A DNA stretch of 64,000 nt from Rikenellaceae bacterium. Its GTDB lineage: Bacteria; Bacteroidota; Bacteroidia; Bacteroidales; Rikenellaceae. Positions 23,035 through 26,084 of the stretch are shown piece after piece. The stretch is from the NCBI GenBank assembly GCA_020860245.1, contig JAJBUQ010000015.1, forward strand, positions 62,001 through 126,000, in the 5' to 3' direction. A model generated the notes under the pieces. It was given only the letters and a program-made list of their open reading frames with translations, ran no database searches and was not told the origin of the DNA. Made by a program: the position numbers and the translations under genes. The first letter of the stretch is position 1; every line of letters begins with the position of its first letter.

Positions 23035-23112
23035 TCTCATATATAAATAATTAAAAAGGTTGATCAAGAAGAAACTGATGCAAATCATTTATCTATCGAA
23101 CTACGTCCTCAA

Positions 23113-23304
23113 TAAAAAAGGGCGTGAGGTTGTTGGAGCTTATCGTATAAAGGTCTTAGGACTACCTGTAAGCAAATAAGCACAACAACCCACGCCACCC
23201 TATGACATTTCCGAGGAAAAAGGTGAGTCTTGTTATACTTATTGTTCGCTTACCATTGCAGAATCCTAAGTTCTTATACAAACAATAAGAAATTTATTCC
23301 ATTT
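23113..23304 (-). ncRNA. Candidate structured RNA with two hairpins and complementary loops
   Basis: On the minus strand about 190 bases fold into two domains. The 5' domain closes with CTTATTGTT/AACAATAAG (23238-23246 and 23281-23289) and carries a small hairpin with loop CTTAGGA (complement of 23264-23270). The 3' domain is a 19-bp bulged stem (arms 23121-23142 and 23177-23196) capped by an AGGT/ACCT hairpin whose loop contains TCCTAAG (complement of 23155-23161). The two loops are exactly complementary over 7 bases. The 3' stem is followed by CTTTTTT (minus strand), a typical intrinsic terminator, which fixes the strand. A -7-like TAATTTTG lies at 23311-23318 without a proper -33 box. It may be an independent RNA or the 3' untranslated region of terL. 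No open frame of note is inside. The family is not recognised. Confidence 0.55.
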
Positions 23305-23402
23305 CAAATACAAAATTAATACTTTTCGGCAAAGATCGGCGATTTACCGAGGATTTTTATTGAGTTTATCCGTTTTTTTATAGCAAAAAAATGAACAGCA
23401 TC

Positions 23403-24860
23403 CTATCCGAACCACGCGGCTTTAAGGGTATTGTCCACCTTCCCGACCACTTCTTTTTCTACAATTCCAGTAAGAACATCGGCAGCATCGTGGGTTCTGT
23501 TCAGTTTAAAATCCCGTTTATAGCGTATAACATCCATATAGAAGGCATTCCATCGCAGATGCCAGTCCTCAGGCATTAATATATGCTTTAACACTGTCGC
23601 CGAATTGGTTATAATTCTCGATTCCTTGTTACCCTTCTGATAAAACCATTCTATTTTGGTAAGGGATACTTTTTTATCTATATTCCTTGCGAATCCGCGC
23701 CCTTCGTTGTTGCTTTCGATATAAGCCGTCCTGGTCTTATTATTATCGAGCATAGCAGCGACAGTTTCTTCCGTTATTTCCATACCCTCACACGTATAAA
23801 CAATGTCCGAGACGTAAATATTGTTCTCCTTATCAATTTCGTAACAAACCGAACAAAGATAATCGGTGCCCGTATCGGCAGTATCCGTGTAATTGCCCTT
23901 CTTTATTATGTCTTCCGGGATTTTTAAATAGGTCCTGAATCTATCACCGTAAAGAAGTCCTCCGGCAGCCACCGGTTTACCTTGATACATCGTCTCGAAT
24001 ATATATGGCTCGAGCCGCCTTCTATTCAATAAAGATTCCACACCGTGTCTTTCAGGCCATAACGGCTCGCCAATACTCCTTTCATCATAAATATTCGGGG
24101 TAGACTCTTTTAACGCCTCGAAATTCAGCTCGTACCAGCAATTGCCGCCGATTTCATCCACAGCCAATTGCCAAACAGGAAGTATCGGCTCTCTTCTTTT
24201 GATCTCTCCGATAATATCTTCATCGTGCCAACGGGTCATAACCATAAGTTCACGGCTATTGTCATGGAGCCTCGTTTTAACCACCGATATATACCAATCC
24301 CAGATATTATTTCTAATTACAGGCGAATTGGCCTCACTACTATTTTTGTACAGGTCGTCCATTATTATTACATCTACCATATTCCCGGTCAGCGGACCTC
24401 CTCTGCCAACGGCCAGCATTCCGCCATCCCTGCCGACTATTTCGAATTCTTCGGCAGTCCGGAGGTAATTCCGCCCCCCGGTACCACTGTCCTTCAGGGA
24501 AGTTTCCGGAAAAACAGCACGGTAACTTGTACTGTCTATTATTCTTTGCACGTATCTGTTGTATCTCGAGGCGAGTTTAAAACCGTATGATGCTATAACT
24601 ATTTTTAAATCCGGGTCCACGCCCAACAGGTACGCAGGAAGAAGCACGGCCGCACCTGAAGATTTACCGTGCTGCGGAGGCATTGTAACGATAAGTTTCT
24701 TTATTTTCCCGGCAGCGAATTCATGGAGCACTTTGTAGTAGGAGTCATGAAATCCGGACATTCGGAATTCCCTTTGCAATTTTATAAAATCGGTGAAATT
24801 ATTCCGCGCGTGTTCAATTTCCGAATTATCCGGAATCTTCTGTTTTATCTTTTTACCCAT
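23403..24860 (-). CDS. Phage terminase large subunit, apparently intact and isolated
   Basis: A 485-residue TerL, the ATPase-nuclease that packages phage DNA. The ATPase has Walker A MPPQHGKSS (60-68), Walker B VIIMDD (164-169) and the coupling motif LMVMTRWHD (205-213). The RNase H-like nuclease keeps acidic residues in NYTDTADTGTDYL (D326/D329/D333), YIESNNEGRG (E382) and HDAADVL (D458/D461). Length is normal and nothing is broken. No portal, capsid, tail, lysis or integrase gene is present. Its start overlaps a 29-residue gene, and a divergent CI-like repressor lies upstream. It is either a remnant kept by selection or part of a domesticated function. Confidence 0.9.
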   Translation of the reverse strand: MGKKIKQKIPDNSEIEHARNNFTDFIKLQREFRMSGFHDSYYKVLHEFAAGKIKKLIVTMPPQHGKSSGAAVLLPAYLLGVDPDLKIVIASYGFKLASRYNRYVQRIIDSTSYRAVFPETSLKDSGTGGRNYLRTAEEFEIVGRDGGMLAVGRGGPLTGNMVDVIIMDDLYKNSSEANSPVIRNNIWDWYISVVKTRLHDNSRELMVMTRWHDEDIIGEIKRREPILPVWQLAVDEIGGNCWYELNFEALKESTPNIYDERSIGEPLWPERHGVESLLNRRRLEPYIFETMYQGKPVAAGGLLYGDRFRTYLKIPEDIIKKGNYTDTADTGTDYLCSVCYEIDKENNIYVSDIVYTCEGMEITEETVAAMLDNNKTRTAYIESNNEGRGFARNIDKKVSLTKIEWFYQKGNKESRIITNSATVLKHILMPEDWHLRWNAFYMDVIRYKRDFKLNRTHDAADVLTGIVEKEVVGKVDNTLKAAWFG

Positions 24861-24942
24861 TAAATTTCATAATATCTGCCCAAACCTGATATTCCGCACT
24901 TCCGGCAAACGACCGAGGGCAATTAAAGTGATTTTTATTCAT
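24853..24942 (-). CDS. Tiny coupled gene before TerL, 29 residues
   Basis: An open frame from ATG (24942) to TAA (24853) encodes 29 residues: MNKNHFNCPRSF followed by AGSAEYQVWADIMKFNG. Its ATG shares one base with the stop of the 95-residue gene (TAATG), and its end overlaps the terL start by 8 bases. Such overlaps on both sides are typical of translational coupling and fill an otherwise empty 81-base gap. No family is recognised. A very short terminase accessory peptide is conceivable. Confidence 0.5.
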   Translation of the reverse strand: MNKNHFNCPRSFAGSAEYQVWADIMKFNG

Positions 24943-25229
24943 TATATGAATTTTTTGAACTCGGTCCAGCTGAAATCATTCGATTCCTCTCCGTTCTCAG
25001 CATAAGTTTTAAAATCCCACCAAACGGGCATTATCTTTTCTATACGGCTGTATTCCACTTCAAAATCCTGATAATTAACCCGTTCAAACAACAATGTACA
25101 CAGTAAAAAGGAGGAGAACTGTTCGGTATCGAATTCAATTTTCCCATTAAAGATTCCATCTTGATTATCAAGTTTTTCCATCAATTCACATGCGACTCCG
25201 GAATAAATTTTGCTGTCTATTGAAATCAT
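24942..25229 (-). CDS. Conserved-looking small protein of the phage island, 95 residues
   Basis: An acidic 95-residue protein with a strand-rich N-terminal half (ISIDSKIYSGVACELMEKLD, then GKIEFDTEQFSSFLLCTLLF) and a Trp-containing C-terminal part (IMPVWWDFKTY, then FSWTEFKKFI). It has no helix-turn-helix, signal peptide or membrane segment, so it does not look like a classical small terminase subunit. It is first in the transcript that leads to the 29-residue gene and terL, with a leader of about 90 bases after a near-consensus promoter. It resembles small uncharacterised proteins of Bacteroidales prophages in general style; this is an impression only. Confidence 0.7.
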   Translation of the reverse strand: MISIDSKIYSGVACELMEKLDNQDGIFNGKIEFDTEQFSSFLLCTLLFERVNYQDFEVEYSRIEKIMPVWWDFKTYAENGEESNDFSWTEFKKFI

Positions 25230-25327
25230 TTTTTGAACTATTTTATGATAAATTGATTTTTTTAATTACTTTCGTGACATATTGTAACATTAAAATTTTA
25301 TTGTGTGTTACTTTATGATCTTTTAAA

Positions 25328-25359
25328 CAAAAGTAATTGTTAGCGATCCAATAAACAAA
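25328..25359 (-). promoter_or_regulatory. Near-consensus promoter for the terL unit
   Basis: On the minus strand, TTTG (complement of 25356-25359) is followed after 20 bases by TACTTTTG (complement of 25328-25335, TAnnTTTG). It is among the best promoter matches in the window. The heptamer TTACTTT overlaps this -7 box and occurs twice more, in the opposite direction, at 25266-25272 and 25308-25314. Those copies are candidate operator repeats in the leader. Confidence 0.7.
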
Positions 25360-25371
25360 CTTTTTTGAATT

Positions 25372-25384
25372 TTGTATAATACAA
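25372..25384. promoter_or_regulatory. Palindromic candidate operator before the CI-like repressor gene
   Basis: TTGTATAATACAA is a perfect inverted repeat around one central A, 17 bases before the repressor ATG. It overlaps a weak -7-like sequence (GAATTTTG, 25367-25374). An autoregulatory site of the repressor is the simple reading. Confidence 0.5.
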
Positions 25385-25400
25385 TTATTGAACATTAAGG

Positions 25401-26084
25401 ATGGAGAACCGCCTCAGAGAGATACGTAAAGTTTATAATATGACGCAGGATCAGCTCGGCGAAATTCTGGGAGTACGTAAGAGCACTCTCTCAATGATAG
25501 AAACCGGTCGATCTTCTTTGTCAAGAAGAAATAAACAAATATTAATTCAAAAACTGAACATAAATCCTGAATGGCTCGATACCGGCGAAGGAGAGATGTC
25601 GTCGGGAGAATTAGTACGGGAGTTTACTCCGCTTGCGCATTCGCGCACGGACCGCAGCGTCAGCATTCAGCGCGTACCTCTCTACAACATAGAAGGTACC
25701 GCAGGACTGGTACCGCTGTTTCTCGATAATAATTACATTGCTCCGATAGATTACATCCAGATACCAAACCTCCCGAAATGCGACGGAGCCATTTATATCG
25801 GAGGAGACAGCATGTATCCACTTCTCAAGAGCGGAGACATCGTGCTTTATAAGCAAACGACAGATATTGTGAACAATATATTCTGGGGAGAGATGTATCT
25901 AATCTCGATAGATCTCGACGGGGAGGAATACATTACGGTTAAATATATTCAGAAGTCGGAACTCCCCGAACATATAAAATTAGTAAGCCAGAACCCGCAT
26001 CTCGCAGATAAGGATATCCCCATATCCCGTATCAAGGCTCTGGCATTCGTCAAGGCGAGTATACGGATTAATTCTACTCGCTGA
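25401..26084 (+). CDS. CI/LexA-like repressor: HTH plus S24 self-cleaving domain
   Basis: A 227-residue protein. Residues 1-60 are an XRE helix-turn-helix (MTQDQLGEILGVRKSTLSMI, then ETGRSSLS). Residues about 92-225 are a LexA/CI C-terminal S24 domain. The self-cleavage set is present: A101-G102 in EGTAGLV, serine S137 in GGDSMYP, and lysine K181 in ITVKYIQK. Their spacing (36 and 44 residues) is like phage lambda CI. Such repressors are inactivated by RecA-stimulated self-cleavage after DNA damage. It faces away from the terL unit, so it probably represses that promoter. Its 3' end overlaps the convergent DUF5684 gene by 11 bases. Confidence 0.88.
   Translation: MENRLREIRKVYNMTQDQLGEILGVRKSTLSMIETGRSSLSRRNKQILIQKLNINPEWLDTGEGEMSSGELVREFTPLAHSRTDRSVSIQRVPLYNIEGTAGLVPLFLDNNYIAPIDYIQIPNLPKCDGAIYIGGDSMYPLLKSGDIVLYKQTTDIVNNIFWGEMYLISIDLDGEEYITVKYIQKSELPEHIKLVSQNPHLADKDIPISRIKALAFVKASIRINSTR

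Follow-up and report, generated by a model that had tools for sequence, protein, structure and literature searches.

Introduction

Gene transfer agents (GTAs) have been demonstrated in few lineages, and a faecal study of 2026 reports them mainly in Gram-positive gut bacteria (PMC12946183). For FpGTA I and II of Faecalibacterium, both the particles and the DNA packaged in them have been demonstrated; their genes form two chromosomal operons, ~125 kb apart in one strain, with the small and large terminases (TerS and TerL), portal and capsid in operon I, and lysis and baseplate genes in operon II (PMC12946183). RcGTA of Rhodobacter capsulatus is domesticated and vertically inherited, and has a capsid of the HK97 fold, no obvious sequence-specific TerS, and genes at more than one locus (PMC7947584, PMC6854486). 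Here we analyse a stretch of 64,000 nt of a Rikenellaceae chromosome (hereafter the window; the genome is labelled G000, and a sister species of the same genus G001) that carries an intact TerL gene in a small operon. The window is most likely the packaging locus of a domesticated phage that is divided between two loci, extends over the whole family and works as a GTA. On balance, and with less assurance, we also favour the fuller proposal that nearly all Rikenellaceae, Alistipes among them, possess an independently evolved GTA, in which a separate terminase under the control of a self-cleaving repressor arms particles that are encoded at the second locus and lack a tape measure.

A search of the open-access literature, with preprints and most subscription journals outside its reach, found no GTA for Rikenellaceae, Alistipes or Bacteroidota, and as far as that literature shows it seems fairly probable that this element would be the first GTA of the Bacteroidota. 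If so, a new phylum would join the known carriers, and Alistipes, a common commensal genus of the gut, would be among the bacteria that may exchange random pieces of the chromosome inside capsids. The split of the terminase from the capsid genes would allow packaging to be removed without touching particle assembly, and would make selection on such costly machines testable. Prophage finders would be expected to miss elements of this kind or misfile them as phage.

Results

Terminase and head genes occur together in the Rikenellaceae, at separate loci

The two loci of the element in the window genome are as follows.

23403-24860 of the window, minus strand: TerL, the large terminase (phrog_38, E = 1.7e-84), overlapping an open reading frame (ORF) of 29 amino acids (aa) by 8 bases
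C30:219.1-226.8 kb of G000, minus strand: head locus L117, with p60, c12, c7, c4, c10, protease, capsid, portal and connector genes

TerL is full-length and intact, with readable ATPase motifs (Walker A MPPQHGKS, Walker B VIIMDD, TRWHDED) and RNase-H-type nuclease motifs (TADTGTD / HDAADVL), as a preliminary description of this DNA had reported. The same description had taken TerL for a lone gene. This holds for its flanks in the window, which have no capsid, portal or integrase gene, and the neighbourhoods of its homologues (20 kb cut around each copy) normally contain no other phage gene. It does not hold for the genome, where portal and capsid lie at C30:219.5-221.8 kb, on a contig other than that of TerL and together with protease and tail-tip genes; a TerL acting independently of portal and capsid is thus not supported, both being encoded at this second chromosomal locus.

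The distribution of these genes was followed in 61 related genomes, 37 of them from the Rikenellaceae and 24 from other Bacteroidales families. TerL is present in 31/37 Rikenellaceae, generally as one copy and with 48-64% identity, and profile searches found portal and capsid (29/37 each) in the same genomes as TerL. TerL without head genes was seen only in G014 and G029, which are 57% and 54% complete, the match in G014 being a distant phage-like contig, and genera g9, g11 and g21 have none of the genes. Neither TerL nor capsid was found in any of the 24 genomes from other Bacteroidales families, and the portal profile gave no strong match there. Across the family, the portal was recovered in 243 of 268 genomes and in 106 of the 110 that are near-complete, that is, of at least 90% completeness; TerL is likewise present in 106 of these 110. 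G562 and G599 yielded TerL and no portal, and second, more diverged copies of TerL occur in G577 (C1:664139), G478 (C26:84446) and G468 (C9 and C31). When a single TerL sequence served as query, 0 loci were returned from genome contigs and 1 from viral contigs; the portal and capsid alignments succeeded.

In the genomes assembled as one contig, TerL and portal lie apart in four cases out of five, at distances of 216 kb in G008 (Alistipes sp. dk3624), 18 kb in G605, 755 kb in G606 and ~2 Mb in G577, and together only in G013. In addition, no TerL was detected in any of 80 head loci (0/80), for which the stretch fetched reached at most 10 kb from the portal in each direction. A single prophage split by assembly, which the preliminary description had considered, is contradicted by both results. 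In genera g7 and g13 (G007, G032 and G013) the genes for a protease of ClpP type, a capsid-like protein, a portal and a connector (DUF6712) come immediately after TerL, which argues that TerL belongs with this gene set. A further layout is found in G026 (L049, 8-18 kb), where TerL, portal, connector and protease are co-oriented over ~10 kb and spaced by unrelated or repetitive DNA, an apparent intermediate between the contiguous and the dispersed arrangement.

TerL is therefore best read, from its sequence and genomic context, as the putative packaging motor of a dispersed element. That the TerL unit might act alone, in defence or DNA processing, would agree with the lack of any other phage gene nearby; its co-occurrence with capsid and portal, and its contiguity with them in G007, G013 and G032, make this scarcely credible, and the defence or satellite role that had been suggested for a lone TerL was rejected in view of the portal and capsid searches.

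Head, tail-tip and lysis genes at the second locus

Head locus L117 lies directly downstream of rpoC and stops ~35 bp from its 3' end. The same rpoC-side site is occupied in the sister species and, judging by position, in G020 (portal and rpoB ~6 kb apart, C23). The gene order p60-c12-c7-c4-c10-PROT-MCP-c9-PORTAL-CONN-holin-lysin recurs in 80 species, all of them Rikenellaceae (including Alistipes and Tidjanibacter). Among their 80 head loci, the connector is present in 80, the capsid in 79, the protease in 74, c4 in 70, c7 in 65, a holin in 56 and an endolysin in 52; by inspection, c42 looks like a holin, c44 like an endolysin and c111 like a spanin.

By profile match, the protease is of the head maturation type (phrog_94, 2.6e-49; Pfam CLP_protease, 2.1e-28), the portal matches phrog_11226 (1.4e-23), and the connector is DUF6712. 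The capsid is weakly recognised by sequence, and PDB sequence searches gave no match for it or for TerL; its AlphaFold model (predicted local distance difference test, pLDDT, 85) matches HK97-fold capsids in the PDB, including that of RcGTA (6tb9), and assigns it to this fold. c12 is tail-completion-like. The model of c4 (774 aa, pLDDT 88.6) has weak matches to tail-tip hubs (monocin tip, Mu gp44-type), and c4 is tentatively a tail-tip hub. The small c10 (91 aa) sits where the phage records L232-L235 carry a tape measure.

Lysis genes and a tail-tip hub kept where there is no tape measure would also suit a domesticated particle with a use other than transfer, such as a bacteriocin-like, DNA-exporting or self-lysis device, the more so as DNA transfer itself is a prediction from gene content. 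Against such a device stands the purifying selection on TerL, portal, head protease and capsid, none of which a tailocin-like device would need, and we consider it quite unlikely.

Vertical descent, purifying selection and immobility

FastTree trees of TerL, capsid and portal from 23 genomes (20 splits) were compared with that of rpoB. TerL shares 12/20 splits with rpoB, capsid 13/20 and portal 8/20, where the random maximum is 3-4, and the distance correlations with rpoB (TerL 0.62, capsid 0.66, portal 0.78) were reached in 0/2000 permutations. Congeneric pairs are often saturated at synonymous sites, and the ratio of nonsynonymous to synonymous substitution rates (dN/dS) was read from unsaturated pairs, where it is 0.03-0.17 for the three genes versus 0.01-0.03 for rpoB; the corresponding ratio of uncorrected differences (pN/pS) is 0.06-0.41 throughout. 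Host flanking genes are common within groups of 23, 22, 7 and 3 head loci, and host genes 3' of TerL (clusters c2-c5-c12-c6-c7) are common to several genera. Because these neighbours are shared among genera, and those of the window recur in the sister species, the TerL unit has been inherited in place, with some relocations. No integrase was matched at any TerL or head locus with the one tyrosine-recombinase query used.

The element is thus vertically inherited, fixed in the Rikenellaceae and under purifying selection. It is also unable to move itself, having no integrase, no replication genes, a single copy and fixed sites. Two proposals of the preliminary description are borne out here: the unit is kept by selection, and a domesticated phage function agrees with its presence at several genomic sites without phage neighbours, a gene-transfer component being the best of the options that had been named.

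The occurrence of TerL units at several different genomic sites, and the existence of head-only islands in other Bacteroidales families, could alternatively point to a mobile phage satellite, or a small prophage, whose TerL hijacks other phages. This is very improbable for an element without integrase that is single-copy, follows an rpoB-like phylogeny and stays at the same site within groups of genera.

The packaging operon and its repressor

The remaining features of the packaging locus in the window are listed below.

25401-26084, plus strand: repressor with helix-turn-helix (HTH) and S24 domains (LexA/CI-type; Pfam and PHROG), divergent from the TerL operon
25380-25392, minus strand: operator-like palindrome TTCAATAATTGTA, 7/8 to TTCA-N5-TGAA, between repressor and promoter
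25328-25359, minus strand: promoter, TTTG-N20-TACTTTTG, of Bacteroidota consensus
24942-25229, minus strand: p95 (95 aa), a small conserved protein that opens the packaging operon, by hidden Markov model (HMM)
24853-24942, minus strand: 29-aa ORF, joined to p95 by TAATG, a doubtful gene

The common plan of the TerL loci, within the 20 kb around each copy, consists of an S24 repressor, a divergent p95, sometimes a TerS-like gene, and TerL. The repressor of the window, which the preliminary description had overlooked, matches Pfam Peptidase_S24 (2e-11) and HTH_19 (3.6e-11) and the phrog_4 repressor (3.3e-34). It keeps an Ala-Gly cleavage site (GTAGL), the catalytic Ser (GDSM) and the Lys (VKY), and with its HTH, cleavage site and Ser-Lys dyad it has every feature expected of a LexA/CI-type S24 repressor, which it is predicted to be. 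A homologue was found by HMM in 24/27 TerL loci. In the repressors of G033, G004, G024 and G035 (L042, L043, L045, L046) both the Ser and the Ala-Gly site are lost, which suggests that a different trigger may induce the element in these lineages. The TTCA-N5-TGAA palindrome occurs at ≥7/8 in 12/18 homologous repressor-p95 gaps, against a mean of 2.1 and a maximum of 7 in shuffles, a test that is somewhat generous as the motif was chosen by eye before counting.

Promoters of Bacteroidota have the consensus TTTG at -33 and TAnnTTTG at -7. The p95-TerL promoter matches this consensus and not that of E. coli sigma-70, a sigma-70 scan having no entry at 25328-25359, and TAnnTTTG-like boxes recur at the equivalent position in most homologous loci; the minus-strand promoter had been correctly recognised in the preliminary description, as had the coordinates of the 95-aa gene, of the TAATG-joined 29-aa ORF and of the 8-base overlap with TerL. 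The p95 HMM matches 5' of TerL in 21/27 family loci, and Pfam and PHROG searches gave no match for p95. The 29-aa ORF, to which importance had been attached, is absent from the sister species, in which the 95-aa gene and TerL lie ~16 bp apart. It occupies the place where other genera have a TerS-like gene, and is probably not a functional gene. TerS-like genes were recognised, with HMMs built for this analysis, in 7/27 TerL loci, plus two of a second type. The expected order of 95-aa gene, 29-aa ORF, TerL and RNA is conserved as regards p95 and TerL, and not as regards the 29-aa ORF and the RNA described next.

23110-23310, minus strand: structured RNA with terminator (minimum free energy -54.7 kcal/mol, z = -3.5 versus shuffles)

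This region 3' of TerL, previously reported as 190 structured bases of the same unit, does fold but is not part of the TerL unit. Its position next to TerL is restricted to the two genomes of this genus. A model built from these two congeneric copies found weaker copies at further places in the two genomes, as well as in other Rikenellaceae, none of them adjacent to TerL; membership in the TerL unit was accordingly rejected in favour of an independent multicopy family. Copies are L281 and L283 (G000, C22 and C3), L280 and L284 (G001, C8 and C5) and L273 (G011), with about three per genome in this genus. The family measures ~190-250 nt and has conserved AACTTAGGA...TCCTAAGACC and GGCGTGRGYTGTTG...CACGCCTTTTTT elements. 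Because its two long helices overlap in order, they represent either a pseudoknot or alternative folds. An Rfam search with the window RNA gave a chance microRNA match and no credible one.

State of the element in this genus

Several observations weigh against a working GTA. The portal of the window genome has an in-frame TGG to TGA change at a conserved Trp (HHN*M; L117:9288 region), TerL of the sister species has one at MTR*H (G001, L024:10207 region), and the connector of the sister species is frameshifted; these changes may reflect either loss of the element in this genus or assembly errors. No holin or lysin was found at the head locus in this genus, and a search for tape measures across the family found none that is conserved, only those of scattered prophages. 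By eye, there is no obvious operator copy 5' of the head operon, and joint control of both loci by the repressor is conjectural. The strongest contrary evidence comes from a study of faecal virus particles sampled from three donors, whose GTA-type events are listed for Gram-positive families although Rikenellaceae were abundant (PMC12946183). Particles, packaging of host DNA and transfer are themselves predicted.

Genome-wide reading of TGA as Trp was considered and rejected, as rpoB, rpoC, alanine racemase and the TerL of the window are free of internal stops when read in the standard code. A recoding confined to the portal and TerL genes is unlikely, two nonsense mutations being the simpler explanation. 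A TGA in G015 was likewise discarded as a stop in TerL, since it lies 5' of the true start. The copy in the window genome may be dead, and because of the portal TGA this strain is less likely to form functional particles; the conclusion at family level is unaffected.

The stops and the frameshift, together with the loss of the tape measure and the absence of all the genes from g9, g11 and g21, are what one would expect if a defective prophage of the family ancestor were merely decaying into functionless pieces. For this genus such decay is possible. Family-wide it is largely refuted, and unlikely overall: TerL and portal persist in ~96% of near-complete genomes, their frames open in nearly every case, dN/dS is well below 1, and gene order is kept across 80 species.

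Discussion

The gene content of the element, its layout at two sites, the co-occurrence of its parts, their vertical descent and the purifying selection on them are observed directly in the genomes compared. A GTA, which remains our preferred explanation, has its genomic hallmarks here, because a single-copy, inherited and selected set of terminase, portal, protease, capsid and lysis genes is present at two loci without integration genes. The phage-derived head, portal and terminase are host-encoded, vertically fixed and under purifying selection, and the genes lie at more than one locus with no integrase or replication genes of their own, as is general for GTAs; the integrase, the replication genes and the contiguous, complete morphogenesis module of an inducible prophage are lacking.

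We propose that the repressor would keep the p95-TerL promoter shut, as the palindrome at the promoter suggests, until RecA-type activation led to its self-cleavage and TerL could be made. TerL would then dock on portal-bearing capsids from the second locus and fill them by headful packaging. This packaging would probably not be sequence-specific, because this genus has no TerS-like gene and most others have either lost it or carry one that goes unrecognised, and chromosomal DNA would be taken up. Holin and endolysin would release the particles.

Comparison with known phages and gene transfer agents

Several database records touch on the element. MT838736 (L142), MT838805 and the IMG/VR records L223 and L225-L231 are filed as phage or virus and look like pieces of the element or its close kin; in L223 and L230, host genes (RNase HII, a phosphate transporter) stand beside the capsid operon. 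The window genome also has a separate, apparently complete prophage on C39 (L137, L056, L138), with its own TerL, a 1084-aa tape measure, a tyrosine recombinase and a distantly related portal (E = 1.2e-26). It was rejected as the partner of the window TerL, being an ordinary phage with an unrelated TerL, portal and tape measure of its own. In L268 (G382), L269 (G345), L266/L267 (G207) and L270 (G193), compact islands combine TerS, a PBSX-type TerL, protease, capsid, portal and connector, with no tail or integrase seen. They are near-identical in two Bacteroidales families, a transposase adjoins the island of L269, and they look like mobile head-only elements, perhaps capsid-encoding satellites.

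The closest phage relatives of TerL are those of the Bacteroides siphophages B40-8 and B124-14 (~45% identical over 94-98%), which are complete free phages, unlike the Rikenellaceae element. Among the 50,697 INPHARED phage records none has this capsid, and the portal matches are weak or fall on tiny faecal scaffolds. The uncultivated phages L232-L235 of IMG/VR resemble the head locus in the succession of tail completion, c7-like, c4-like, tape measure, protease, capsid, portal and connector genes, but differ by the ~1000-aa tape measure itself, which separates the protease from the c4-like gene, and their capsids are 32-33% identical.

In RcGTA, host control is exerted by CtrA/GafA, whereas the Rikenellaceae element has a LexA/CI-type repressor. 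The two are alike in being domesticated and vertically inherited, with an HK97-fold capsid, no obvious sequence-specific TerS and genes at more than one locus (PMC7947584, PMC6854486). Homology is not indicated, the portal profile matching the RcGTA portal at E = 0.75.

FpGTA shares with the Rikenellaceae element a gut anaerobe as host, two chromosomal operons, and the combination of holin and endolysin with packaging genes, capsid and portal (PMC12946183). It has no visible tail or a very short one, a likeness predicted for the Rikenellaceae element from its genes. The Rikenellaceae element differs in belonging to another phylum and in keeping terminase and repressor apart from all structural and lysis genes. 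In layout, FpGTA is the closest described system.

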